From a virus, in IMG/VR virus record IMGVR_UViG_3300042542_005618, positions 1-35,279 of that record: a DNA stretch of 35,279 bases. One strand, written 5' to 3'. A program made the position numbers and the translations under genes. The stretch's first letter is position 1. The number at the start of each line of letters is the position of its first letter. The notes beneath the pieces are model-generated. The model ran no database searches. It had not been told where the DNA came from and was given only the letters and a program-made list of their open reading frames with translations. Positions 2,464 through 25,346 of the stretch are shown here, in pieces.

Positions 2464-2630
2464 TGGCCGCCGCAATGACCCTCCGCGAGGCCATCGCCAG
2501 TCGCCTTACCAGCTACGCGGCTGAGCGCGGACTTCCCCCGTTGGACCCACCGCCAGGGTCTCAAGGACTGCCGCAAACAGCGCCCGCTGCTCCTGCGGTG
2601 TCGCACCTGAAAAAAACTCAGGGTCGCTGA
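2463..2630 (+). CDS. Short ORF, possibly truncated by the recombinase gene
   Basis: This 55-codon frame begins at ATG 2463, overlapping the previous stop (TGATG). The first 15 or so residues (MAAAMTLREAIASRLTSYA) look like a genuine protein start. Beyond about base 2506 the frame runs antisense to the 3' end of the recombinase and becomes Pro/Gln-rich, like a shadow. I infer that a longer cargo gene was cut when the recombinase segment arrived, or that a very short protein is made. The small size leaves this weakly supported. Confidence 0.35.
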   Translation: MAAAMTLREAIASRLTSYAAERGLPPLDPPPGSQGLPQTAPAAPAVSHLKKTQGR

Positions 2631-3810
2631 TCCGTTCGGCATACCCAGCCAGTTCAGGCGCCACCCTCGGCCTTTGCACCAGGCTGTCAATCTCCTTGCG
2701 AAGTTCAACGCAAGCTGAGGAAATAGCCGGGTTACGTCTGGCCAGCCCCTCTAGCTGCTCCAGATCCCGCCGCTTTGCCGCCACCGCCGGATCCTCGTCG
2801 GCGGGCATGGCATACGCTGCCGCCAGGCGATCTGCAGCAGCCACGCACGCCGCCACCGCCAGAGGCATGGCATCAGGTTCCCGGATGGCGCCTTTCTCCT
2901 CGCACAACCGGTGACGGCAACGCCACCATGCCGTATTGCCCGAAATGTTGCGTCGCAAGCTGTGGCCGCACGCAGCGCAGCTCAGCAAACCGGTCAGCCC
3001 ATGGCGAGCTTCACGGCCTCGACCCAGAAAGGTATTGCTGGGCCGCCGCAGGTACATCGCCAGTTCCTGCCAATCCCCCTCACCGATCAGCGGCGGATGC
3101 TGGTCGTAGTGAATCTCTCCCCACCGCTGGCCCCAACTCTTCCCGCTGCCTTTCTGCAGCAGGTGGCCGACGTGCCCCCTGATGCACGGGTTGTAGAACC
3201 ACGCCATCAAATTGGGGGTCGCCGGGGTCCAGCTGCACCAGCTCGGCAGTTCCCGCACCGCCGCTGAAAAGCTTCCCAGCTCCCGCAGCCGCTCCAGCAC
3301 CTTCAACGCCTGGGGCCAATTCTCCGGGTGGGGCTCCAGCCGGTGGTTGGCACCCCCTTGATACCCAAACGGTTTCCGGCGCCGCAGGTGGCGGCCCTGG
3401 GAGCGGTACTGCTCGAACTGCTTCTTCAACCTCAGGCTCAGCATCCGCGACTCCACCTCCGCCATGGTGGTGAGGATCCGGGCCTGCATAAATCCCTGAG
3501 GTGATGCCGCTTCGATGGTGCCGCCGTCGATCGCCGTGACCTTGACCCCCTGGATCCCGCACAGCGCCAGCAGCTCATCGGCAAAGGCGGCGTTTCGGCC
3601 CAGCCGATCGGCCCTGGTGATCACCAGCTCGGCCACGCGGCCAGAACGAACCTCAAGGATCACCTCCGCCAGGCCTGGGCGGGTGTCAACCTTTCCGCTC
3701 TCCATCTCCTCGACAATCCGATCGCAGCCGGCCGCCCGAAGCCTGGCCACCTGGGCAGGGAGGCTGTCCGCCTGCTCCTCCTTCGACACGCGGGCATAGC
3801 CGAGCTTCAT
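2506..3810 (-). CDS. Large serine recombinase / phage integrase (XisF-like)
   Basis: A 434-residue recombinase that would carry out site-specific integration or excision. The catalytic resolvase domain is at about 1-140: YARVS gives nucleophile Ser9 and Arg7, and TRADRLGRN supplies Asp68, Arg69 and Arg72. A recombinase DNA-binding domain follows at about 145-270. A zinc ribbon has Cys278, Cys281, Cys298 and Cys303. A helical, likely coiled-coil region with LEQLEGLARRNPAISS comes near 350-390. The order and size are as in cyanobacterial fdxN-element recombinases. All key residues are present, so it is likely active. It is transcribed against the flanking cargo genes. Its upstream gap (3811-4075) carries an inverted repeat and a partial copy of the shared motif. 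Confidence 0.9.
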   Translation of the reverse strand: MKLGYARVSKEEQADSLPAQVARLRAAGCDRIVEEMESGKVDTRPGLAEVILEVRSGRVAELVITRADRLGRNAAFADELLALCGIQGVKVTAIDGGTIEAASPQGFMQARILTTMAEVESRMLSLRLKKQFEQYRSQGRHLRRRKPFGYQGGANHRLEPHPENWPQALKVLERLRELGSFSAAVRELPSWCSWTPATPNLMAWFYNPCIRGHVGHLLQKGSGKSWGQRWGEIHYDQHPPLIGEGDWQELAMYLRRPSNTFLGRGREARHGLTGLLSCAACGHSLRRNISGNTAWWRCRHRLCEEKGAIREPDAMPLAVAACVAAADRLAAAYAMPADEDPAVAAKRRDLEQLEGLARRNPAISSACVELRKEIDSLVQRPRVAPELAGYAERISDPEFFSGATPQEQRALFAAVLETLAVGPTGEVRAQPRSW

Positions 3811-4075
3811 GGATAGGCTGCGGTGCAGTGGTTTGGGACCTTAGCGCTTTGACGACGTTTTCCTTCGATACCGTCTCATAAGCGCTGCCTTGCGCTGCAA
3901 GGGGTTTCAGTGCCGCCGGCCTTCCATGCCTGCCCTGAGCCGTGCTGATGGCACTGCAAAACGTGGTACGGTTCCGGGGTCAGCAGAAGAGCCATGAGTG
4001 GCCCTGCTGGCACCGCATTACAACTCACCCCGCGCAGGCTCTGAGCAGCCGCCGGGATCCTCATAGGACCGAACC
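3811..4075. promoter_or_regulatory. Divergent control region beside the integrase; possible attachment site
   Basis: This 265-bp gap separates the recombinase from a divergent gene. Visible elements are CGACGTT at 3853-3859 (left half of the shared 13-bp motif) and GTCTCATAAGCGC at 3873-3885. The reverse complement of the latter shares TTATGAGAC plus an RG with the site before the ParB-like gene. A 7-bp inverted repeat, AGCGCTT (3843-3849) / AAGCGCT (3880-3886), flanks the region. Phage attachment sites often sit next to the integrase, but without the host junction an att core cannot be named. No gene is seen. Confidence 0.4.
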
Positions 4076-6608: not shown

Positions 6609-8733
6609 TCAGGGGGGTGCAGCGCGCCCGCAGGGCGTCGAGACGGGCCTGGAGCGAGGCATCGGCCCGGTGATCGGAAGCCGCGGCCTGGTAGGCCTCC
6701 TGGATCAGCCGCTGGATCCGCTCATCGCGGCTGTCCCGGCGGTTGCTGGCTCCTAGGAAGTCATCCTTCTTGATCTGGGCCAGCAGGGCATCAAACATGG
6801 GCTCCATCGCCTCGGCCTGTTTCCTGGTGGGCCAGAGGCCATCACCGAGGCGCCGCTCTGCTGCATTGCCCTTCTTCATCCCAGAGTCATCAAACTCTCT
6901 GGTGAGATAGGTGTTGGATCTGCCAGCCTTCTCCAGCTTCAGTGAGACGTGGGCCTCGAACGACCGGGCAAACATTTCCACATCACTCAGCCAATACTCC
7001 TCACTGAGCTGGCCCCCGGCCTTTTTGACTTCGCGAATTGAGTCATACACCTGTCGCGTGAAGCCGCTTGTCGTCCAGGCGCTCTTCACCTCGTTCATTG
7101 CGGCACGCTTTTCTGGCGCACCACGGTTTTGCGACAGGAAGCTTCCCCCGCCGGCGGCGTAGTTGTCCAGGGCGTGGCCCCATTCGTGGGACAGGCTGCC
7201 GACGCCTTTTTTGCGGGTGAGGTTGATCACCTTCATGGTTGGCTCATAGTGCGCAACGGCGCCGCCGCGGCCCCTGGCGCCGATGGCCAGGCCAAGGGTT
7301 CCGTTCAAGCCAATGGCGCTGTCAGGCAGGCCTGTGGCATCTGCCAGGTCCACCAGGGCCTCAGCCGCCTTTTGTACGTGGTGCTTTCGCTCGTCGTCTG
7401 TGACTGAGTTGCCGTACTGGAGACCCCGGAACCCGAGGCCTTTCACGATCGCGTCGGTTGCCGCGTCAGGGGTGCCTCCCACATTGCGGCCGCCCTCGCG
7501 CCGTGCATGGCCGACGTAGTGGTCAGCAGAGTTGAATCGCCACTTGCCGTTGCTTTGCTGACCAAAGGCCGCAGCCATGCTGAAGCCTTCCATGATCTTG
7601 GTGCCTGCATCCAAGGCTCGCTCCATGGTCGGCCTGGCTTCGACCATCTGCCCTTCTTTCTTCAGGGCGACAGCGAACGCATTCATTTGCCCAAGGACAC
7701 TTGTAGTGCCTCTTTGATACATGCGCCTTTGCATGGAGATTAGTACATTGGCGGTCGGGTTGTAGGGGTCTCTGTAGGTGCGGAAATATCCGGTGCCTTC
7801 CTGTCCTCGAATCTTTGAGATCAGGTCTGATAGTTTCCTTTGTACTTGTTTCCTCAGCTCGCCTGGTTCTGAGTCTTTGCCATCGTCGACGACCTTGCGG
7901 AGGGACTGGAAAGCATCGAAGTATTGTTTCCGGACGGTTTTTGCTTCTACTCCTTTTTCAGTGGAGGGTCTGCCGACGTTGTCCCTGGCCGTGGCCTCGC
8001 GCCGCTCCTGCGCTTTGACGTAAGAATCCACATCCTTGGGCGAGAGGTTAGGGAAGGCCTTGAGGCTGAAATGGGCCTCCAGCCGAGACAGGATGTTGCT
8101 TTCGCTAAGACCGCTGATCAGGTCGGTGGGGAAGTTCTTCATCAGGTTGTCCCTGGTGAGAACCTTCTCCACCTGGCCGCTGGCTTCGGCCTCTTCGATG
8201 GTGCGGAAGGCGTTGCGCCTGTGGCGGGCGGAGTCGCCGATGTCCTCTCCTGCGTTGCCCACGGCCGAGGCCCGGGCGAACGCATAATCCGGGTCCCCTT
8301 CCTTGGCTGCCCGATCGGCTTCTCCTCGGGGCGTGCCGGCGGGGGCCTTGCTGCTGGTGCTGGAGGGTGGCGTGGCCGCCTTGGCTGCTGCAGCCTCAGC
8401 CGCTTGCTTCCTTGCTGCCGCCTGGGCCTTCTCAGCGGCCACCTGCTGCCGGGTGCCTTTCAGCTGGGTCGCCTTCTCGCCCCGGCGTGCGGCGATCGCC
8501 CCGGCCAGCTCACCGGCCTCCTTCTGCCGCACCTGTGCAATCCCCCGCTGAGAGGAGGCCCCGCCGGCGGCAAGCGCAAGCAAGCGCTTCATGCGCTCCT
8601 TCCCGATCGCCGTTCGGGGCGTGGTGCGGCATTCCTTCCGCAAGCTGATGCAGGCGCTGCCGCACCTATAGCCGGTGCTGCACTTCTTCCGCAGGGCGTC
8701 GATCCGGTGCTGCAGCGAAACCGCCAGGCTCAT
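6601..8733 (-). CDS. Polyvalent phage protein: LPD1-like domain plus zincin metallopeptidase
   Basis: This 710-residue protein has several parts. Residues 1-45 hold a cysteine motif (CSTGYRCGSACISLRKECR) of a type common in cyanobacterial proteins. An Ala/Lys-rich helical linker follows. The C-terminal half has the features of large polyvalent protein domain 1 (GLGFRGLQYGNSVTDDERK). It then has the zinc-protease signature SHEWGHALDN, with His516, Glu517 and His520. A downstream EMFARSFEAHV near 586 could give the third ligand. From family knowledge such proteins are packaged with the DNA and injected early; that is inference here. ATG 8733 has GAGG about 10 bases upstream. It lies between portal and head genes. 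Confidence 0.75.
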   Translation of the reverse strand: MSLAVSLQHRIDALRKKCSTGYRCGSACISLRKECRTTPRTAIGKERMKRLLALAAGGASSQRGIAQVRQKEAGELAGAIAARRGEKATQLKGTRQQVAAEKAQAAARKQAAEAAAAKAATPPSSTSSKAPAGTPRGEADRAAKEGDPDYAFARASAVGNAGEDIGDSARHRRNAFRTIEEAEASGQVEKVLTRDNLMKNFPTDLISGLSESNILSRLEAHFSLKAFPNLSPKDVDSYVKAQERREATARDNVGRPSTEKGVEAKTVRKQYFDAFQSLRKVVDDGKDSEPGELRKQVQRKLSDLISKIRGQEGTGYFRTYRDPYNPTANVLISMQRRMYQRGTTSVLGQMNAFAVALKKEGQMVEARPTMERALDAGTKIMEGFSMAAAFGQQSNGKWRFNSADHYVGHARREGGRNVGGTPDAATDAIVKGLGFRGLQYGNSVTDDERKHHVQKAAEALVDLADATGLPDSAIGLNGTLGLAIGARGRGGAVAHYEPTMKVINLTRKKGVGSLSHEWGHALDNYAAGGGSFLSQNRGAPEKRAAMNEVKSAWTTSGFTRQVYDSIREVKKAGGQLSEEYWLSDVEMFARSFEAHVSLKLEKAGRSNTYLTREFDDSGMKKGNAAERRLGDGLWPTRKQAEAMEPMFDALLAQIKKDDFLGASNRRDSRDERIQRLIQEAYQAAASDHRADASLQARLDALRARCTPLNG

Positions 8734-8734
8734 T

Positions 8735-8968
8735 TCAGGGATACCTCGGGGGTGGCAGTGGTTCACGGCGCCCCTGCCCACAAGGATGTAGAGGCGGCTT
8801 TGTGCCTATTCGGATCCGCGCCCAGCAGCTCCACCAACGAGGGAACCAGGAGCGGCCGAAGTGCTCCAGCTTGTCGGGGGGGGCCTGCTCCAGCCACTGC
8901 TCGAACATTGCGAAGGACGTCCCCTCCGGATCCCCAGGCCTGAAGCTGTCGGTGTGCAGGATCGTCAT
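8735..8968 (-). CDS. Small phage protein after portal; frame may shift internally
   Basis: The ATG at 8968 overlaps the portal stop (TGATG), so translation is coupled. Residues 1-43 (MTILHTDSFRPGDPEGTSFA to GRSWFP) look genuine, with G or C in nearly every third codon position. After about 8845 this frame becomes Trp/Arg/Pro-rich. The alternative frame reads SLVELLGADPNRHKAAS and stops at 8763. One missing C in TTCCCTCG would join them into a 68-residue protein. Against this, the unshifted frame stops one base before the next gene's ATG, which is also neat. A run of eight G (plus strand) lies inside the gene. The function is unknown. Confidence 0.5.
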   Translation of the reverse strand: MTILHTDSFRPGDPEGTSFAMFEQWLEQAPPDKLEHFGRSWFPRWWSCWARIRIGTKPPLHPCGQGRREPLPPPRYP

Positions 8969-10923
8969 CAGGTGTCCCCAGCAAGGTAGGCATCACACAG
9001 GGCGCCCATTGCTACCAGGTCGAGGGCATTGATCCGGCGAATTGCGGGTTCGGCGCCGATGGCATCACGGATTCCCCGCTGGTGCTGGTGCCCCATGGCC
9101 AGCAGGTAGGCGCCGGAGCTGGGCTCGAACACCTCCCAGACACCGCTCAGATCCGGACCCACCGCCACCGGGTAGGGCAGGGTCTGCCCGTAGGGGCCCA
9201 TCAGGCGGCCGATGCCGGGGCCATCCATGCGGATCGACACCCCCAGGATGTCCACCACCTGGCCGGCGGCATCGTTGCGGGGCTCCTCATCCCGGCGCCG
9301 CCTGCGGCGAGCGCGGTTGCTGCTGATCTTCTCGGCCAGCTCCTGCGATCGCGTTTCACAATCGCTGCAGCAGGGTTCGTCGTTGGAATCGGCGCGGGGC
9401 GGGGCCTCGGGGATAGCGGGGCCGGTGAGGGCTGGATCCTCATCTGGAGGGGCAGCATCAGGCGCTGCCGCTGGATCGCCCTCGAGGCTGCCGCCGAACT
9501 CCACCGGGGCCTCCTGCTTCGGCTGCGGGATGGATCCATCGGCCTCCCGATTCAGCAGGGTGGTGTCCAGGCTGAAGCGGGGTTTCCCGAAGCGGGCCAG
9601 GGCCACCTCGTTGGGCTGCAGCACACCGGACTGGATGTACTGGGCGTCGGCTGTGGCGACCTTCGACCGCAGCTCAGCCTGTTCGTCTTCTGTGGGGGTG
9701 TAGGTGGGCCGGAAGGTAATCTCCCAGTCAGCGGGGGGCTTCTGGCCTTTCCATGGGCCCTCGGAGCAGGCCATCACCAGCTCGTAAACCCGCCGCAGAG
9801 GCTCCTTGAGGTGCTGGGCCTGCCAGTCGGCCACCTCATTGCCAAAAGCGGCCTGTTCACTGCGTCCGTCGGCCCCCAGCCCGGAGGGTGACTCACCCCA
9901 GAGCAGGGTGTGGGGGAGGCCGGAGGCGCCGGTAATTTCAGATTTGAGGTTGGCGAGGATGTCGGCGATGCCAGCTGCCGAGCGGTTGAGGTTGGTGATC
10001 TTCTCGCCGTCGCTCAGGATGTAGGCGCCGATAGTGCTGCGGGCGAGGGCATTGGCCTTCAGCCGCTGGCTCAGCTTCTCTTCCCCACCATTGGCGAGCA
10101 TGTTGGCCAGGCCCGGCAGCTCGTGCACCACCAGGTCGAAATCGTGCAGGATGTCCGCGGCCGATTGTTGGCCTGTCTCCCACCTTTTGAAAACGTCCCA
10201 GACCAGGTCCACCACAGACACCCCCCACCACTGCCGCTCTTGCTGTGACCGCCAGGAGCAGGGGAGCCCCTCAATGCGGATCACCCGGGAGCTGTGGATC
10301 TCAATTTGGGTGGCTTCGGTGAGGCCCAGGCCAGCACTGGTCACCACCTTGCTGCCGGCCTGATCGTTGAGCTTCTGCAGGTCCCGATCGGGCTGAGTCC
10401 AGAACCAGTAGCTTTCCGGCTCGCCGATGCCGGACCAGCCGGCGGCGGGGTAGAGACGCCAACGATCGATCGGGTAGAAGCCGTGGATGGTCCGGAGCCG
10501 CCTGAGGTTCAGAGGCTTGTCGATCGGCGTGCGATCGTCGGCGATCAGCACCAGGGCGCCACCGCCATAGAGGCGGCTGTAGGTGGCGGCCGCGGCCAGT
10601 GCCTGGCGAAGGTGGAGCTTTTCGGTCCAGCCAACGACATCGTCGAGCTGGGCCTTAATGCGGCTGGAGGTTTCATCCCCCACCGACAGGTCCCAGCCGC
10701 TGCGGGTGCCCTGTTGGGGGAGTTTCTCCACGATCCGGCGGATCAGCCAGCTCTGCTCATAAAGGGCATCAACAGCAGACTCAGAGAGGATCCGGCTGCG
10801 CTTGACGCCGATCGCTTCGTTTCGGTCCTTCGCGGTGCCCAGACCGGTGAGGACGTTGATCAGGGCGCCATCAAGCCGCCACTCAGGTCGGGAATCAGCG
10901 GAGCTCAGGAAACCAATCGACAC
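8968..10923 (-). CDS. Phage portal protein, DUF1073 family
   Basis: A 651-residue portal, the dodecameric DNA-entry ring at the head vertex. Family features are visible: VDALYEQSWLIRRIVEKLP near the N terminus, LRQALAAAATYSRLYGGGAL, RTIHGFYPIDRWRLYP, a long helical wing with GADGRSEQAAFGNEVADWQ, and EVALARFGKP. The C-terminal extension (from about 480) holds a Cys cluster (EPCCSDCETRSQELA), an Arg run (RARRRRRRDEE) and a further unassigned domain. Start GTG 10923. Some databases attach the label anti-CBASS Acb1 to this family. I see no paired H-x-T phosphoesterase motifs in the C-terminal region, so I do not propose that activity. Confidence 0.85.
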   Translation of the reverse strand: MSIGFLSSADSRPEWRLDGALINVLTGLGTAKDRNEAIGVKRSRILSESAVDALYEQSWLIRRIVEKLPQQGTRSGWDLSVGDETSSRIKAQLDDVVGWTEKLHLRQALAAAATYSRLYGGGALVLIADDRTPIDKPLNLRRLRTIHGFYPIDRWRLYPAAGWSGIGEPESYWFWTQPDRDLQKLNDQAGSKVVTSAGLGLTEATQIEIHSSRVIRIEGLPCSWRSQQERQWWGVSVVDLVWDVFKRWETGQQSAADILHDFDLVVHELPGLANMLANGGEEKLSQRLKANALARSTIGAYILSDGEKITNLNRSAAGIADILANLKSEITGASGLPHTLLWGESPSGLGADGRSEQAAFGNEVADWQAQHLKEPLRRVYELVMACSEGPWKGQKPPADWEITFRPTYTPTEDEQAELRSKVATADAQYIQSGVLQPNEVALARFGKPRFSLDTTLLNREADGSIPQPKQEAPVEFGGSLEGDPAAAPDAAPPDEDPALTGPAIPEAPPRADSNDEPCCSDCETRSQELAEKISSNRARRRRRRDEEPRNDAAGQVVDILGVSIRMDGPGIGRLMGPYGQTLPYPVAVGPDLSGVWEVFEPSSGAYLLAMGHQHQRGIRDAIGAEPAIRRINALDLVAMGALCDAYLAGDT

Positions 10924-11026
10924 GGGCCAGTGCGCTTAGGCCCAGGGTAGGCCTGGCGAGTTAGCTATATCACTAGCCAACGACGTTACGCACCATAGGC
11001 TGGGGCCGAACATCAGCCCTAGTCCA
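10924..11026. promoter_or_regulatory. Divergent promoter region, portal / sigma factor, with motif copy c
   Basis: This 103-bp gap separates the leftward portal operon from the rightward sigma gene. CGACGTTACGCAC at 10981-10993 is a copy of the shared motif and lies inside the larger dyad AACG-A-CGTT (10979-10987). An AT-richer stretch, TTAGCTATATCACTAG, lies just to its left and could hold a -10 element. The arrangement suggests control of both directions from one site. Confidence 0.5.
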
Positions 11027-11947
11027 TTGGGCGCCCCGCTCGATTCGCTGCTCGGTTCGTATGCGCGGCTGCCCATCCCCTCCAGGGAGGAGCAGGTGTT
11101 GCTGGGTCGGGCCATCCGGAAGTGGCTGGACTGGGATCCAGCTCCAGAGAAGGCCCCGCCTGGTGTGCAGCGGGCCGGCCGGCGGGCGCGGGATCGGATG
11201 GTGGCCCGCAACATGCTGCTGGTGGCAACACAGGCCCGCTCGTTTTCGGTGTCCTCGGTGGTGGCCCTGGAGGTGCAGGATCTGATCCAGGAGGGTGCGA
11301 TCGGGCTCACCAGGGCGGCGGAGAAATTCGACCCCTCGCTGGGCAACACTTTCGCGACCTATGCGGTTCCGTGGATCCGGCAATCGATGACCCGGCTGGT
11401 GCACACCAGCGGTTCAATTCGACTCCCAGTGAAGCGGGCATCGAAGATGAACCAGCTGCGGCAATGGGTGGAGGCCTTCACAGCCCGTGAGGGCCGTTCA
11501 CCGACGGATCAGGAGGCGATGGAGGAGATGGGGCTCAGCGCCGCCGACCTGCGGATCCTGCGACAGGCGGCCGCCGTCCGGCAGGTGGTTTCGCTCGATT
11601 CCCTGATGAACGATGGCGAGGGGGATGCCTACATCACCCACGTGGCGGCACCAACGACAACAGCGGACACCACGACCAAAGAGCGTGCCCAAGTGCTGGA
11701 GGCGCTAGAACCCTGGCCCGATCTGCGGGAGATCATGGAGCGCCGGCTGGCCGGGCACACCTGCCAGGAGGCTGGCCTGGCGATGGGGATCACCCGGTTG
11801 GCCGCCGAACGGCTGTGGGAGCGAGCGCTGGCGATGGCGCAGCACCTGATGGCCGCCGATCACCAGCACGGCGGGGGCCTGCTGGAGCTGCTAGAGATCG
11901 AGATTGAGATCGAGCAACAGCTGCTCCTTTTCCCACTGGCCGCGTAG
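11027..11947 (+). CDS. Phage-encoded sigma-70 family RNA polymerase sigma factor
   Basis: This 306-residue sigma factor would redirect host RNA polymerase to phage promoters. Region 1.2 is seen at residues 5-35 (DSLLGSYARLPIPSREEQVL). Region 2 lies at about 55-126, with the core-binding and -10 recognition stretch DLIQEGAIGLTRAAEKFDP and TFATYAVPWIRQSM. Region 3 begins at SIRLPVKRASKMNQ. The C-terminal part (TCQEAGLAMGITRLAAERLW) is a degenerate region 4.2-like HTH, so -35 recognition may differ from the host's. The longest frame starts at TTG 11027, with no Shine-Dalgarno sequence; the true start is uncertain. The stop is TAG. It is the first gene of a rightward regulatory block. Confidence 0.85.
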   Translation: MGAPLDSLLGSYARLPIPSREEQVLLGRAIRKWLDWDPAPEKAPPGVQRAGRRARDRMVARNMLLVATQARSFSVSSVVALEVQDLIQEGAIGLTRAAEKFDPSLGNTFATYAVPWIRQSMTRLVHTSGSIRLPVKRASKMNQLRQWVEAFTAREGRSPTDQEAMEEMGLSAADLRILRQAAAVRQVVSLDSLMNDGEGDAYITHVAAPTTTADTTTKERAQVLEALEPWPDLREIMERRLAGHTCQEAGLAMGITRLAAERLWERALAMAQHLMAADHQHGGGLLELLEIEIEIEQQLLLFPLAA

Positions 11948-11987
11948 CACTGGTGTTCCAGTCGGGAGTAAGTTCATAGCGATCTAA

Positions 11988-12000
11988 CGACGTTGTGAAT
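11988..12000 (+). promoter_or_regulatory. Putative operator motif, copy d, at the LexA-like gene
   Basis: CGACGTTGTGAAT ends three bases before the ATG at 12003. It is part of the dyad AACG-A-CGTT (11986-11994), identical to the dyad at 10979. A protein bound here would block translation-start-proximal transcription, as in autoregulation. Confidence 0.55.
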
Positions 12001-12002
12001 CC

Positions 12003-12290
12003 ATGGCGGAAGCGGCCAACGGCCCTGGCCCTGCAGGCGAGATCCAGACCGAGCGCGGGCTGAGCGAAACACAGCAGCTCACCTTGAACGCCGTGAGGGC
12101 TTACATCGCAGAGCACGGCATCCCGCCAAGTTTCCGCGACGTGATGGAGGTGCGGCAGCTGGCCAGCACCTCCACAATCCAGGCCCATTTCCGGCATCTC
12201 CAGCGGGCCGGAGCCATTGAGCTGCGCGATGGAGTGCCTCGATCCGTGCGGGTGCTGTGGCCCCGGCCAAAGCGTCGGAGGGGCGGTTGA
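12003..12290 (+). CDS. LexA-type winged-helix DNA-binding protein lacking the peptidase domain
   Basis: This 95-residue protein matches the N-terminal DNA-binding domain of LexA. LSETQQLTLNAVRAYIAEHG is followed by IPPSFRDVMEV, then STSTIQAHFRHLQRAGAIEL, and a wing ending RSVRVLW. The S24 self-cleavage domain of LexA is absent, and a basic tail (PKRRRGG) ends the protein. It is probably a repressor or activator that RecA-stimulated cleavage cannot switch off. A copy of the repeated motif lies directly before its start codon, so it is the best candidate for the protein that binds that motif; this is inference. Its TGA overlaps the next ATG. Confidence 0.75.
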   Translation: MAEAANGPGPAGEIQTERGLSETQQLTLNAVRAYIAEHGIPPSFRDVMEVRQLASTSTIQAHFRHLQRAGAIELRDGVPRSVRVLWPRPKRRRGG

Positions 12291-12586: not shown

Positions 12587-13137
12587 CCGGTTGCCGGCTG
12601 CTAATGGGGGACTGCCTCGACGTGCTGCGCACCATGCCTGATTGCAGCGTGGATGCGGTGGTGACGGATCCGCCCTATGGCCTGGCCTTCATGGGCAAGC
12701 GGTGGGATTACGACGTGCCCAGCGTGGCGATCTGGGCCGAGTGCCTCCGGGTGCTCAAGCCTGGCGGGCATCTGCTGGCCTTTGCCGGCACCCGCACGCA
12801 GCACCGGATGGCGGTGCGGATTGAGGATGCGGGGTTTGAGATCCGGGACATGATTGCCTGGGTCTACGGGTCGGGATTCCCGAAGTCGCTGGACGTGAGC
12901 TCAGAGCGTCAGGGCGTGACCCATCCCACAGTCAAGCCGCTGGACCTGATGGCCTACCTCTGCCGGCTGGTCACCCCACCGGGTGGCGTTGTGCTGGATC
13001 CGTTTATGGGCAGCGGCACCACCATCAAGGCCGCTCTTGCCGAGGGATTCCAGGGCATCGGCATCGAGCGGGATCCGGTCTACTTCACCATGGCCGAGCA
13101 CCGGATCAACGGTGCACAGCTGGGGCTGATTCTGTGA
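12583..13137 (+). CDS. Compact N6-adenine/N4-cytosine DNA methyltransferase
   Basis: This 184-residue enzyme transfers a methyl group from AdoMet to DNA. The catalytic motif IV, DPPYG (Asp29-Tyr32), comes first, with LKPGGHLLAFAG after it. The AdoMet-binding motif I (LDPFMGSGTT) lies near the C terminus, the beta-class order. In larger phage relatives 60-150 residues separate VYGSGFPKS from the TxKP motif. Here VYGSGFPKSLDVSSERQG runs straight into THPTVKPLDLM, so the target-recognition region is nearly absent. The start is taken as TTG 12583, overlapping the previous TGA; ATG 12604 is the alternative. It could protect phage DNA from restriction. Specificity cannot be read. Confidence 0.8.
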   Translation: MTGCRLLMGDCLDVLRTMPDCSVDAVVTDPPYGLAFMGKRWDYDVPSVAIWAECLRVLKPGGHLLAFAGTRTQHRMAVRIEDAGFEIRDMIAWVYGSGFPKSLDVSSERQGVTHPTVKPLDLMAYLCRLVTPPGGVVLDPFMGSGTTIKAALAEGFQGIGIERDPVYFTMAEHRINGAQLGLIL

Positions 13138-17814: not shown

Positions 17815-18281
17815 CAGAAGTCACCGGCCCGGTCCTCGGCCTCCTGCTCCTCAGGTGTCAGGGGTTTAGCCCCAGCACCGCCGTCGCCCGCCTCCTCCTG
17901 CGCCTTCTCGAACTTCTCGACGGTGAGGATCAGCTGGTTGATCTCACGGTTCACGCCAAGGGCGACACCCAACTGCTTGCTGGTGATGGCCTTCTTCAGG
18001 AGGTCTTCCATCCGGCAGAGCTGGATGGAAGACAGGCGCAGCTTGTCGTAGAGGCTGGTGCTGGTGATTGCCAGTTCATAGGCCTCGCCGACCAGCTTCG
18101 AGGCAACGGCAGGGCTGACCCTCCAGCCCCGGATGGCCACGTCCATCAGATCCTTCGGCCCGAAGCCCTGCTTCACCGCCATGCCCAGCAGGGCATGCAC
18201 CCGGTAGTTGCGTTCTGCCGCCCTGGAGAGGGTTCGATCTCGCGCAGGCTTTGGGCTGGCCCCGGCTTTCTTTTTCGCCAC
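17814..18281 (-). CDS. terS: Terminase small subunit (candidate)
   Basis: The 155-residue protein would recognise the packaging site and recruit the large subunit. It starts MAKKKAGASPK, with a basic tail, and is then all-helical (NYRVHALLGMAVKQGFGPKD, then VASKLVGEAYELAITSTSLY). A coiled C-terminal part and an acidic tail follow. GTG 18281 is chosen because AGGAGG stands about nine bases upstream; the longer frame from TTG 18302 includes that ribosome site as coding. The role is inferred mainly from position, overlapping the large subunit gene by ATGA. The preceding four-HTH protein is an alternative DNA-recognition subunit. Confidence 0.65.
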   Translation of the reverse strand: MAKKKAGASPKPARDRTLSRAAERNYRVHALLGMAVKQGFGPKDLMDVAIRGWRVSPAVASKLVGEAYELAITSTSLYDKLRLSSIQLCRMEDLLKKAITSKQLGVALGVNREINQLILTVEKFEKAQEEAGDGGAGAKPLTPEEQEAEDRAGDF

Positions 18282-18305
18282 CCCGGGGTTCCTCCTGCTC
18301 AAAGG

Positions 18306-19121
18306 TTAGGAACCTGTAACAACGGCCTTCCGCGTGGTGGCAGGGCGGCCCCGTTTCACCAGGAACCCAGATCGCTTCAGGGCACCGGAAACGATGGCTG
18401 AGGGGATGTCGAACTCCCGGGCCATGGCGGCAACGGTCTGGCCCTCGATCCAGCCCTTGCGCAGCTGCTCGAGCACCTCATCCGATGGCATTTCCTCCGG
18501 TAAGAGCTCACCGCGGCGGCGGCGGGCGCGCTCGACCATCCGGGCCGAATTGTTGGGGCGATCGTGCTCCCGCAGCCAGCAGCGCACCGCCAGGGTGGTG
18601 CGATTGATCATCTGCCCGATGAGCGAGGCGTCATGGCCCAGCGCCCGCAACCGCAGGCAGGTGGCGCTCTCGTCGTGGGTCCACGGCCGGTAGCGGTCGG
18701 TGACTCTCCGCCTCTCCGCCCGAATGGTGACGCCGGCCGTCACCAGCAGGCGGCGAATCGCCGCACGGCTCACCTCATAGCTGCTGGCCAGGGCCTCGAT
18801 GCTCTCCTCGGCCAGGTAGCGGTGCACCACCACCGCCACCGGGAGCCGGGGCTTCTGGGTGACGATCCCATCTCCACCGGCCTGCAGGTGATTGGTGAAG
18901 CCCCGGAACCTAAGCACCTCCCCACGGCTCCGGCGGAAATCGGCAAGGCTTGCGTAGATGCAGCTAAGGCTCCGCCCCAGCTCGTCCGCTATCTCACGGG
19001 CTGGGACACCCTGCTGGTGGAGGGCATAGATCCGGTCATGCTCCTTCAGGCTCATGTCGCGGCCGCGGCGAGCTGGTGGGGGCGCCGTGGGCAGAGCAGG
19101 GCGACAGGCGGTGGCTGCCAC
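18306..19121 (-). CDS. Protein with four helix-turn-helix units
   Basis: This 271-residue basic protein appears to be four HTH modules in a row. Module 1 is at about 28-64 (GVPAREIADELGRSLSCIYA). Module 2 is at 99-131 (IEALASSYEVSRAAIRRLLV). Module 3 is at 148-185 (GHDASLIGQMINRTTLAVRC). Module 4 is at 214-253 (TVAAMAREFDIPSAIVSGAL). GTG 19121 lies three bases after the ParB-like stop; ATG 19055 is the alternative start and would remove a Pro/Ala-rich leader. Four linked HTHs suggest binding to a long or repeated DNA site. Lying between ParB-like and terminase genes, it could mark the packaging site. That is inference. Confidence 0.7.
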   Translation of the reverse strand: MAATACRPALPTAPPPARRGRDMSLKEHDRIYALHQQGVPAREIADELGRSLSCIYASLADFRRSRGEVLRFRGFTNHLQAGGDGIVTQKPRLPVAVVVHRYLAEESIEALASSYEVSRAAIRRLLVTAGVTIRAERRRVTDRYRPWTHDESATCLRLRALGHDASLIGQMINRTTLAVRCWLREHDRPNNSARMVERARRRRGELLPEEMPSDEVLEQLRKGWIEGQTVAAMAREFDIPSAIVSGALKRSGFLVKRGRPATTRKAVVTGS

Positions 19122-20967: not shown

Positions 20968-21491
20968 GGCCTTACCTCCCGTGCGGTTGGATCAACCCAA
21001 GGTAATCCGATCATCCGGAACAGGGCCTCTTCAGTGGGTGTGGGGCAGATAGCCCCGTCGCTGCTCCTCCGCAGCAATCCACCTTCAGAGCGATAGCCGG
21101 CCCGAACCCAAGCCGGTGCCAGCACGGTGCGGCACCAATCGGCCGAGCCGGTCCTGATTGCCAGCTGAAGGCCGTAGCCATACGGGTGAGGCATGAACAG
21201 ATCGAGTTTCATCCCATGCCACGGCAGGACCCGCTGGGTGTAGCGGCAGGGCAGCTCCCCGCGCACCTTCTCCCACTGGTTCACCATGGTGGCGATGCCA
21301 GAGCAGAACAGGGGCGATGGGTCGTAGGCCTTGGGGATGCAGACGATCTCTAGGTCGCCGATGGTGGGCCGCCGGCGGCGGACGCTGCCGGCAATGTTGA
21401 TGCGCTCGCAATGAGGCTTCAGCAGCTCCAGCACCTGGGCGGCGACACCATCGGCGATGGCCAGGGGCAGACGGGTGGTGGTGGTGCTCAT
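20964..21491 (-). CDS. PolX-type nucleotidyltransferase
   Basis: This 175-residue protein has the catalytic core of DNA polymerase beta-like transferases. A GS motif at residues 35-36 (IAGSVRRRRPTIGDLEIV) carries the first two metal ligands, Asp46 and Glu48. MKLDLFMPH gives the third, Asp97. It is only the palm-type NTase domain, without the fingers, 8-kDa or PHP domains of full PolX enzymes. It could fill gaps or add nucleotides during phage replication or recombination. ATG 21491 overlaps the upstream stop. The substrate is unknown. Confidence 0.75.
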   Translation of the reverse strand: MSTTTTRLPLAIADGVAAQVLELLKPHCERINIAGSVRRRRPTIGDLEIVCIPKAYDPSPLFCSGIATMVNQWEKVRGELPCRYTQRVLPWHGMKLDLFMPHPYGYGLQLAIRTGSADWCRTVLAPAWVRAGYRSEGGLLRRSSDGAICPTPTEEALFRMIGLPWVDPTAREVRP

Positions 21492-21871
21492 CCCTGAACC
21501 CCGTCATGCTTCTGGAAGGGCTCTGAATCAGGGCCCGTGAAGCGATCGTCAGTGCCCCAGCCGTTGCGGCGGTATTCCATCAAAAACATCAGGCAGCAGC
21601 CGGCATGGGCCAGGTGGCTAAACCCCGTCTCTGGATCCAGCTCTTCGCCGCGCCACCAGGCGAACAGATGCCGGAGTAGGGCGGCGAAGTAGCGGCCCCA
21701 GCGCGCGCCTCTGCACCAGTTGTTCGCTTCGTACTTGGCCGCGCCGAACGTCAGCACTTCAGCGATGTCGGTCACGGCGGCCCAGGGCACCAGATCGAGG
21801 CGGGGCTTCTAAGCTGACTCGGCCGACTTGCGTGCTTCACCCTGGGGCTCATCGAACAGTTTGTGCGTCAT
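21488..21871 (-). CDS. dATP/dGTP diphosphohydrolase-like protein interrupted by in-frame TAG
   Basis: Residues after the interruption match the phage dATP/dGTP diphosphohydrolase N-terminal family (MazG-like, DUF5664): PRLDLVPWAAVTDIAEVLTF, GAAKYEANNW, RHLFAWWRGEELDPETG and SHLAHAGCC. Such enzymes trim dNTP pools. ATG 21871 overlaps the upstream stop (ATGA) and reads MTHKLFDEPQGEARKSAESA. Codon 21 is TAG (21811-21809), and the same frame continues into KPRLDLVPW without a shift. A restart at GTG 21790 would lose only the conserved KPRLDL edge. One base change (GAG or CAG to TAG) explains it. Nonsense mutation, sequencing error and readthrough are all possible. Confidence 0.7.
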
Positions 21872-24057: not shown

Positions 24058-25346
24058 TGGCCTGTGATGTGACGGTGGTAGGCGAAGGGGTCTGGGGCGC
24101 CGGTTTCTGGATCGATCGGGGCCTCGAATGCGGCGGGGGCGACGGTGGCGGCGAGCTGGTTCTGCGGCAGGTAGGCGGCAAAGCGGCGCTCCTTCAGCCA
24201 GCGAGCAATGTCAGGCAGGGATGGGGCAAAACCCGTGGAGGCGTGCTGCTGGTCCTGAGCGCGGATTTCAGCAGCCAGGGCCCCTACCAGCTGCTCGGCG
24301 GTGTGGCCCTCAGCCAGCACGGCAGAAAACTCTCTCTGGGCAGCGGGCAGAGATTGACAGGGGACCCGACGGGGCGCCGCCAGGTAGGCGCTGCGGAGGG
24401 TGTCGAAGGCCTCAGCGGCTGCAGGGCCGGCGCGCAGCTGCTCGCAGCGACGGCGGTAGCCGGTGACCAGGGTTTTGCAGCCGCTGGCGGCGGCGTGTTC
24501 GAGGAACGGCTCGAGGACCCCCAGGGCGTCGGCGTGGAGAATCGCCTGGATGTCTCCGGCGCTGAGCTCCCTGGCCGCGGCGGGGTGCTTGCTGCGGCGC
24601 CTGAGCCACCACTCGCGCAGCAGCTGGCGGTGCGGGTGGGCGCAGTCGGGCAGGGTTGAGGCGGCTGCCGGGGGCTGGGTTGCCGGTTGGGCATGGCGCT
24701 GGGGAGCGTCGTTGTGAGCTGAGGCTATCACGATCTCGATCGCTGTCGCGACGGGCTCGGCCGTCGTGACCGTTGGCGCCGTGGCATCGATTTTCGCCTC
24801 GCGTTGGTGGATATATGTAGTGGAGTAATCAATTAACCCTTCTTGGATTTCTTCTTCTTCGTTTAAAGGTTTATTGATTGGGTCCCCCCCAGGGGGAGTC
24901 CCCTCTGGGGGGAGGGGTCCCCTTCCGGGGGAGTCCCCTCCAGGGGGAGGGGGCGGGCCCTGGGGGGGACTCCCCTCTGGGGGGAGGGGGTGCGCTGATT
25001 TGCGCTGCACTGCAATGGGTTTCGCGGTTCGCTTTTTGCGGCCTGTTTCCATACGGATCCGGTATCGGTTTGTCCCGTTGGGTCCTTTGCCCGATTTGAT
25101 GATCCAACCCTCACTAAGAAGGGTCGAAAGTGCCGTTCTGATGTCCCGTTCCTTCATGCCGCACTCCAGGGCAAGCCGAGGGACGGAAGGGAATCCGTCA
25201 TCCGCTTGGCCGGCGTAAAACCAGAGCCAGGCATAGACGAATACCAACCTCCTGCGCCCTATCTGTGCACAGCTGCTCAGCAAGTCGAGCGGAATCTGTG
25301 CAAACAGAGGGCGGTGCAACTCACCGCTGAAATCTTTGGTTGGCAT
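24054..25346 (-). CDS. Replication initiator-like protein with embedded repeat DNA
   Basis: This 430-residue protein has an N-terminal winged helix (about residues 10-95): HRPLFAQIPLDLLSSCAQIG, FPSVPRLALECGMKERDIRT and LSTLLSEGWIIKSGKG, the pattern of HTH_36-type initiators. A Pro/Gly-rich linker encoded by G-rich repeats follows (about 120-155). The helical C-terminal part includes LREWWLRRRSKHPAAARELS and an end segment, FAAYLPQNQLAA. Like lambda O, it could bind origin repeats inside its own gene and load a helicase. No helicase motifs are present. ATG 25346 is chosen as start; upstream sequence in frame lies in the control region. It is the first gene of the leftward replication operon. 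Confidence 0.65.
   Translation of the reverse strand: MPTKDFSGELHRPLFAQIPLDLLSSCAQIGRRRLVFVYAWLWFYAGQADDGFPSVPRLALECGMKERDIRTALSTLLSEGWIIKSGKGPNGTNRYRIRMETGRKKRTAKPIAVQRKSAHPLPPEGSPPQGPPPPPGGDSPGRGPLPPEGTPPGGDPINKPLNEEEEIQEGLIDYSTTYIHQREAKIDATAPTVTTAEPVATAIEIVIASAHNDAPQRHAQPATQPPAAASTLPDCAHPHRQLLREWWLRRRSKHPAAARELSAGDIQAILHADALGVLEPFLEHAAASGCKTLVTGYRRRCEQLRAGPAAAEAFDTLRSAYLAAPRRVPCQSLPAAQREFSAVLAEGHTAEQLVGALAAEIRAQDQQHASTGFAPSLPDIARWLKERRFAAYLPQNQLAATVAPAAFEAPIDPETGAPDPFAYHRHITGQ
24885..24990. repeat. Three G-rich 26-bp repeats; candidate iteron origin
   Basis: Units lie at 24892-24917, 24927-24952 and 24964-24989, with consensus GGGGGASTCCCCTC-YR-GGGGGAGGGG. Units 1 and 3 differ at one base. 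Start-to-start spacing is 35 and 37 bp, not multiples of three, so the middle unit encodes a different peptide from the outer two. Each unit carries the palindrome GGGGA-S-TCCCC and G-runs that could fold into hairpins or quadruplexes. The location inside the initiator gene suggests origin function by analogy with lambda; this is unproven. Confidence 0.6.

Follow-up and report, generated by a model that had tools for sequence, protein, structure and literature searches.

Genome context

The window, by which is meant the whole stretch of DNA analysed, is the 35,279-base virus record IMGVR_UViG_3300042542_005618 (positions 1 to 35,279). Its gene set includes a serine integrase on the minus strand (2506-3810; Resolvase E 1e-26, PHROG integrase E 9.3e-37), a portal protein on the same strand (8968-10923; Phage_portal_3 E 2.1e-63), a terminase, a lambda O-like replication protein and Erf. 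A sigma factor gene is divergent from the portal gene at 11027-11947 on the plus strand, and next to it lies a gene for a LexA-like protein. Gene calls were made with a simple codon-usage script, so start positions are approximate, and many of the records compared are orthologous fragments.

Three relatives of 67-69 kb each were compared in full. Both ends of one of them, G003 (67 kb), align to a single unbroken segment of the window, which is what a circular or permuted genome would give. On this evidence the window is probably about half of a temperate phage genome. The host is probably found among small cyanobacteria; cyanobacteria are indicated by the best-matching sigma families and by some of the phage matches. 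A scan of genome contigs for host placement gave two loci, from unrelated bacteria.

Some features lie apart from the sigma gene. Relative to G001, about 612 bases are missing from the window at 12897-12898, within a DNA methyltransferase gene downstream of the LexA-like gene, and the window methyltransferase protein matched several methyltransferase models in two separate stretches. Three G/C-rich 35-nt repeats at 24880-24986, within the O-like replication gene, are possibly origin iterons like those of lambda O. A small protein at 21488-21790 on the minus strand matched a dATP/dGTP pyrophosphohydrolase phage family (E 2.9e-38).

The sigma factor gene and its relatives

A phage-encoded primary-type sigma factor had been proposed for this locus in a preliminary description, and the gene call agrees with it exactly: the open reading frame at 11027-11947 encodes 306 amino acids from a TTG start and matches sigma-70 profiles, with further evidence from AlphaFold2, Foldseek and HH profile comparison. 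Region 2 covers approximately residues 49-128, region 3 residues 129-183, region 4 residues 213-277 and a C-terminal tail residues 278-306. The conserved region 2 of the sigma-70 family was found with Pfam Sigma70_r2 (PF04542; E 6.7e-13, 48.7 bits against a cut-off of 24), as it was in all 23 members of the alignment A4. The protein also matched PHROG 351, 'RNA polymerase sigma factor' (E 4.4e-39).

The best family and the best solved structure both come from the cyanobacterial primary and group 2 sigmas. The best NCBIfam model is TIGR02997, the cyanobacterial RpoD/SigA family (E 4.5e-36), and the best solved-structure match is PDB 8h3v (E 6.5e-25), a cyanobacterial SigA. Judged by these matches the window sigma is RpoD-type, with cyanobacterial SigA as its nearest non-viral relatives. 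It differs from the TIGR02997 sigmas in falling below the membership cut-off (124.7 against 384.5 bits), in an altered region 4 and in a clamp-like tail. The sigmas of the cyanosiphoviruses S-CBS1, S-CBS3, KBS-S-2A and S-LBS1 are likewise under that cut-off, at 167-260 bits.

The claim that regions 1.2, 2 and 3 are all well kept held in full for region 2 alone, the only one to exceed its Pfam cut-off in the window sigma; region 3 reached 18.7 bits against a cut-off of 25.3, and region 1.2 had no Pfam match, yet can be aligned by eye. Pfam detected region 2 in all 23 members of A4, but region 3 was detected in 10 of them, region 4 in only 8 and region 1.2 in only 5. Most of the -10 residues of region 2 are retained in the alignment. 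Q119 and T122 align with the -10-reading residues Q437 and T440 of E. coli sigma70; the T122 position is Arg in L012 and L013, and where E. coli has W433 the window sigma has Pro.

An AlphaFold2 model made with 23 viral sequences had a mean pLDDT of 72.7 and a pTM of 0.44, with low values in the linker and tail. The best Foldseek match against sigma chains of initiation complexes (E 2.1e-10) had a TM score of 0.36 and an rmsd of about 30 A, so the match is one of local structure with domain placement left free. Values of dN/dS were calculated for region 2, region 3, region 4 and the helix-turn-helix (HTH) part of region 4. Within the close clade (10 sequences) they were 0.66, 0.21, 0.53 and 0.30, respectively, and over all pairs of 14 sequences 0.40, 0.28, 0.50 and 0.56.

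In a 40-row tree the window sigma is part of an all-viral clade of 12 rows (100/100), nested within clades of 13 (99/93) and 16 rows (95/87) that are also all viral. SigA, RpoD and the plasmid-borne cyanobacterial sigmas were placed elsewhere. The non-viral rows are six cyanobacterial plasmid-borne sigmas, two other plasmid-borne RpoDs and one SigA segment, with picocyanobacterial chromosomal sigmas outside the sample, so that the comparison with host sigmas called for in the preliminary description is half complete and favours a viral lineage within that sample.

The sigmas of S-CBS1, S-CBS3, KBS-S-2A and S-LBS1 and the group 2 sigma of P-SS2 are likewise phage-borne and of cyanobacterial RpoD type. 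The former four are 33-37% identical to the window sigma over 53-64% of the query, and that of P-SS2 is 33% identical. Those of S-CBS1, S-CBS3 and KBS-S-2A keep SREXXRQ-type region 4 residues, unlike the window sigma. Another 26 related viral contigs (L047-L071 and L073) encode sigma-like proteins that end after region 3, about 175-186 amino acids from the start of the match, and have no region 4.

Region 4

In region 4 (residues 216-277, positions 11672-11857, plus strand) the residues of the recognition helix are replaced, and ITRLAAERLWERAL is found where SigA has VTRERIRQIEAKAL. The standard region 4.2 for TTGACA, typical of group 1 and 2 sigmas, is lacking. The Pfam region 4 profile gave no match to the window sigma, although it does match 8 of the 23 members of A4. 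A region 4 profile built from the clade nevertheless matched the region 4 profile of nine other viral sigmas (probability 95%, E 2e-8), whereas a region 3 control reached 8%. In the AlphaFold2 model region 4 forms four helices (residues 213-226, 231-241, 246-253 and 257-277), with mean pLDDT of 84-90 over residues 221-270. The description of region 4 as degenerate is therefore apt for its sequence, which Pfam does not recognise, but not in the sense of decay: mere decay was rejected on the helices, the profile match and the dN/dS of the HTH part (0.30 within the close clade, 0.56 over all pairs). Region 4 has lost its -35-reading residues and kept its fold.

The sigma promoter and a site shared by three genes

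The predicted promoter of the sigma gene (10973-11001, plus strand) has a -35 element CTAGCC, a 17-bp spacer and a -10 element TAGGCT, with a predicted start G at 11008. Across clades the region upstream of the sigma gene has a -35 of TTGGC or CTGGCC type, a 17-bp spacer containing the shared motif and a -10 of TAGGCT type. The -35 is CTGGCC in close relatives, TTGGCT in L024 and L027, TTGGCC in L038 and CTGGCT in L025. The spacer core GAYGTTRC is in register by eye, with departures at one or two bases in L023, L024 and L025.

That the sigma promoter region carries a shared motif was confirmed. The exact sequence AACGACGTTRYG is found at 10979 and 11986, and the window contains three copies of its core, the 8-mer ACGACGTT, where 0.27 would be expected; three copies were reached in none of 200 first-order Markov simulations. 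The three copies start at 3852, 10980 and 11987, upstream of the integrase, sigma and LexA-like genes. The operator-like site in the sigma promoter spacer is AACGACGTT at 10979-10987. The same AACGACGTT at 11986-11994 lies in the leader of the LexA-like gene, downstream of a -10 element TAAGTT (11969-11974, predicted start G at 11981), and ends 8 nt before the start codon. The third copy is GACGACGTT at 3851-3859, upstream of the integrase gene on the minus strand; of the promoters assigned here that of the integrase is the least secure, as by our count it would not start at a purine.

Looser forms of the motif are less informative. With two mismatches AACGACGTTRYG matched 7 times in the window against 3.3 expected, and 7 was reached in 6 of 100 shuffles; this is near chance, so only the exact 8-mer was used. 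With one mismatch there were 2 matches in the window and 3 for a reversed control pattern. The control was at least as frequent overall, so that only the placed sites carry weight. Matches with up to one mismatch were found in 7 of 12 records, at both the sigma and the LexA-like positions in G001, G003 and G005, and in none of the five sister-clade records G006-G010. The exact ACGACGTT sites are kept at all three positions in G004, at two in G001, two in G002 and one in G003, and at none in G005; G009 has one copy and G007 two copies at other places.

The LexA-like gene (12003-12290, plus strand) encodes a protein of 95 amino acids with a LexA-type DNA-binding domain (Pfam LexA_DNA_bind, E 1.6e-14). 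It is too short for a peptidase domain, and with 54.3 bits against a cut-off of 110.95 for TIGR00498, over profile positions 2-70 of 203, it is not a full-length LexA equivalog. The LexA DNA-binding domain was also found in 29 phage records (E <= 0.01), some of them annotated as repressors. What sets the window gene apart from phage LexA-type repressors is that it adjoins a sigma gene and that the shared site is ACGACGTT. The cyanobacterial LexA box differs from ACGACGTT. In L024, L025 and L027/L038 both the site and the recognition helix of the LexA-like protein differ in sequence, a comparison made by eye. ACGACGTT fits an operator better than a promoter element, an operator being the simplest reading, and the LexA-like protein is proposed as repressor of sigma, integrase and itself.

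The CCTASCCT box

When words preceding the called genes of G003, G009 and G007 were counted, those of the GGCCTA and TACCCT kind stood out. The box has the form CCTASCCT. It is 8 bp long, its last six bases make up a -10 hexamer, the base at the expected start is a purine, and a consistent -35 element is lacking. The promoter of the sigma gene itself differs in type (TTGGC-N17-TAGGCT).

All four placed copies in the window are on the minus strand. The box of the portal gene, CCTACCCT at 10944-10951, lies 28 nt before the start codon, with a predicted start A at 10937. CCTAACCT at 18303-18310 lies 29 nt before the GTG at 18281 of the gene ahead of terL, by its position perhaps the small terminase. 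CCTACCTT at 8983-8990 precedes the unit after the portal gene, 22 nt before a 77-codon open reading frame (the distance to the next gene is 28 nt in G003), and CCTAGCCT at 700-707 lies 29 nt before the start of the gene at 325-678. Neither of two more occurrences in the window, at 8052 and 1909, is closely followed by a called start; that at 1909 is again CCTAGCCT on the minus strand, with no called gene close downstream on that strand. In G003, 7 of 8 copies of the box lie 28-36 nt before genes on the strand of the structural genes.

For counting, an occurrence on either strand was taken as placed if it lay 26-38 nt before a called start, and a second count, given in brackets, allows in-frame alternative starts. 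The pattern CCTANYYT is infrequent but clearly tied to gene starts: it was placed in 6/8 (7/8) cases in G003, 4/8 (4/8) in G009, 3/9 (5/9) in G007 and 2/6 (3/6) in the window, giving 15/31 (19/31) when these four are pooled. The mean placed fraction of the 5040 anagrams was 0.013 (0.018) in G003 and 0.013 (0.028) pooled. No other anagram reaches the placed count of CCTANYYT in G003, and in the pooled set its fraction is reached by 3 (4) of the 5040, these being the pattern itself and overlapping variants. Single records are a weaker test: the number of anagrams as good or better was 6 in G003, 16 in G009, 31 in G007 and 26 in the window, counts that include the pattern itself and many patterns with one or two matches. 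In a scan of patterns of the form XYTAnnnT, CCTANYYT ranks first in G003 (7/8, 0.08 expected) and the overlapping CCTASNYT ranks first in G009 (7/11, 0.12 expected).

Unlike in the window clade, CCTANYYT is not placed before starts in S-CBS1 (0/2), S-CBS3 (0/3), KBS-S-2A (0/9) or S-LBS1 (0/16), all of which carry other sigmas. Descent is a confounder of the box's absence from these more remote carriers of sigma genes, and in S-CBS1 and S-CBS3 the count comprises just 2 and 3 occurrences. The XYTAnnnT scan gave no comparable box of their own in G011, KBS-S-2A or the other named phages, the best in KBS-S-2A being GGTAWNNT (4/23).

The portal box is found at 28-29 nt in 14 of the 18 relatives examined. 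It is present in L023, where the script chose an earlier start, and in L045 it lies 14 nt before the chosen start and 29 nt before an alternative one. L046 has ATTAGCCT instead of the box, and no portal-like open reading frame was found in L074. In G011, where 2 of 5 occurrences of CCTANYYT are placed, the sigma has an ordinary region 4 and the same box lies 29 nt before the portal gene; the altered region 4 is therefore not needed for the box.

Twenty box sites were aligned. They were chosen, many are orthologous, and they represent 8 gene positions by our own grouping. T-12, A-11 and T-7 are invariant because the search pattern requires them. Seven nucleotides beyond T-7, at a position that was not selected for, 20/20 sites have a purine. 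There is no sustained -35 signal across the 20 sites, with two kinds of exception. Hexamers of the form TTGnC, with 4-5 of the 6 bases of TTGACA, lie 15 bp upstream of the -10 in the family comprising G003 59416, G009 8260 and G007 36308 and at the portal sites of G009 and G007. The portal sites of the window and G003 have GTGATA at 18 bp, with 4 of 6 bases; at least 4 are expected by chance in about 13% of cases. These hexamers make a -35 contact possible at some sites. The arrangement is T4-like, a -10 box without a conserved -35, with partial exceptions in two site families.

A different sequence, CAGACTGA, is also enriched upstream of genes. It begins 28-31 nt before five gene starts (G003 47697, G009 15060 and 32560, G007 28819 and 43120), a sixth copy lies 114 nt before a start, and it is possible that it acts as a second promoter or leader element.

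The C-terminal tail

The tail (11858-11944, plus strand) has low confidence in the AlphaFold2 model and is probably disordered. It ends in EIEIEIEQQLLLFPLAA and contains QLLLF, which resembles the bacterial beta-clamp-binding motif; the tail pattern used here is of the type described in PMC9690074. This pattern, Q[LPVM]x[LIM][FLM] within the final 34 amino acids, was set after viewing the tails and guided by the known consensus. Among called proteins it is found in the sigma alone in the window (1/36), G003 (1/56) and G007 (1/59), and in the sigma and one other protein in G009 (2/56).

Relatives vary in the motif. L025 ends in WQPTLF and L045 in GQLMIF, and QPSLL (L024, L027, L038) or QLPLM (L043) is found near the end in others. 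The pattern is absent in L012 and L013 and lost through an earlier stop in L008 and L009. It was unmatched in L046, L074, KBS-S-2A, S-LBS1, S-CBS1, S-CBS3 and P-SS2, and in the plasmid-borne bacterial sigmas (0/8). In total 15 of 57 distinct tails (from 95 proteins) carry it, all in the clade of the window sigma, in L043/L044 or in L045; L023, L035 and L036, whose reading frames run off the contig, were excluded from the count. Shuffled tails carry it in 0.35-9.6% of cases. It is present in 5 of 7 chosen lineages (shuffle P 1.8e-8), or in 4 of 6 (P 1.3e-6 to 1.8e-6) if the sisters L024 and L027 are treated as one lineage; neither result allows for the fact that we chose the pattern and the lineages. 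No bacterial-type clamp gene (PF02768) was found in any of the five phage records searched, so any clamp would be the host's. The tail peptide probably binds the host beta sliding clamp and would so couple late transcription to replication, this being the least certain step of the model.

Proposed mechanism and alternatives

The sigma factor most likely switches on the particle-making genes from the CCTASCCT box. Observed directly were the sigma gene with its tail motif, the box together with where it is placed, and the three shared sites; the model that follows builds on these. The LexA-type protein would keep sigma and integrase off through the operator with core ACGACGTT inside the sigma promoter. 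Once repression ends, the host holoenzyme would make the sigma, because the sigma promoter has an ordinary -35/-10 layout. Region 2 of the sigma would then bind host core polymerase and read the -10-only CCTASCCT boxes before the portal, terminase and other late genes. The altered region 4 would no longer read a -35 of standard type, its main part perhaps being to hold the polymerase flap, and the QLLLF-type peptide of the disordered tail would bind the host beta clamp and tie late transcription to replication. The steps would follow each other in time in this order. Taken whole, a late sigma that is repressed by a LexA-type protein, reads CCTASCCT and has its tail on the host clamp is moderately probable.

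The closest comparison is the late system of T4. According to a review (PMC2988020), a T4 late promoter consists of one 8-bp box at -10 and its -35 region is not conserved; gp55 has sigma likeness in domain 2 only and a C-terminal clamp-binding epitope. The same source asks why a fused late sigma has not been found. The window phage shares with the gp55, gp33 and gp45 system of T4 the -10 box without a conserved -35. Clamp binding by the C-terminus may be a further likeness, the motif for it being present in 15 of the 57 tails. Its box, CCTASCCT, differs from the T4 late box. The T4 functions are divided between gp55 (domain 2) and a separate gp33 at the flap, whereas domains 2-4 are found in one protein in the window phage. 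In a further difference from T4, no PF02768 clamp was found in the five phage records searched, and the tail pattern is of the bacterial beta-clamp type (PMC9690074). Having regions 3 and 4, the window sigma stands outside the gp55 family and looks like a gp55/gp33 fusion in function. It would act like gp55, gp33 and gp45 together, with both sigma domains in one protein and the clamp borrowed, and by analogy the QLLLF tail suggests a single-protein counterpart of the replication-coupled late sigma of T4. A one-piece replication-coupled late sigma in the full sense, with region 2 reading the box, region 4 holding the flap like gp33, a QLxLF tail on the beta clamp and LexA-type silencing in lysogeny, is put forward tentatively and, taken as a whole, is less likely than not. 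In the searched literature, mostly open-access and consulted in part, neither a CCTASCCT-type late promoter for a cyanosiphovirus nor a sigma with a bacterial beta-clamp motif was found; predicted sigma70-like promoters are reported there for P-SS2 and CL 131.

A host sigma, SigA or group 2, might instead read the CCTASCCT promoters, leaving the phage sigma with another role, for instance in redirecting the transcription of the host. TASCCT does retain T-12, A-11 and T-7 of ordinary sigma70-type -10 elements, and SigA-like late promoters are described for cyanophage Ma-LMM01 (PMC5780444). The boxes, however, lack a consistent -35 and have the unusual form CC-TASCCT, next to a -35/-10 promoter of the sigma gene in the same phage, and among the phages tested their enrichment is confined to those of the window sigma clade. 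Reading by a host sigma is rather unlikely on this evidence. The altered sigma could also be a decoy that displaces the host sigma, or a protein in decay, as the missing -35 residues of region 4 and the loss of the tail in some relatives might indicate; with the fold of region 4 kept under purifying selection and most -10 residues of region 2 retained, this is very unlikely. Highly improbable, too, is a role of CCTASCCT as an mRNA leader or processing element and no promoter: the narrow range of distances to start codons would suit it, but the T-A---T stands at -10 spacing from a purine in 20/20 sites and the distance to the start codon varies from 28 to 36 nt in G003.

The proposal of the preliminary description that the sigma reads the ACGACGTT motif through TTATGA, TTGTGA or TTACGA is highly unlikely, although the motif lies within the sigma promoter region and is conserved in close relatives, since none of 19 TTRYGA sites on both strands of the window has a TANNNT -10 at 16-18 bp downstream, the motif occupies the spacer in one promoter but follows the -10 in another, and it has no match with up to one mismatch in G006-G010. 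TTRYGA was accordingly rejected as a -35 element. The CCTASCCT boxes before late genes are better candidate targets of the sigma than TTRYGA, and the role in timed phage transcription foreseen for the sigma is plausible. If the model of a LexA-repressed late sigma reading CCTASCCT is true, these temperate and probably cyanobacterial phages would have a defined late-promoter code and a switch from lysogeny to late gene expression.
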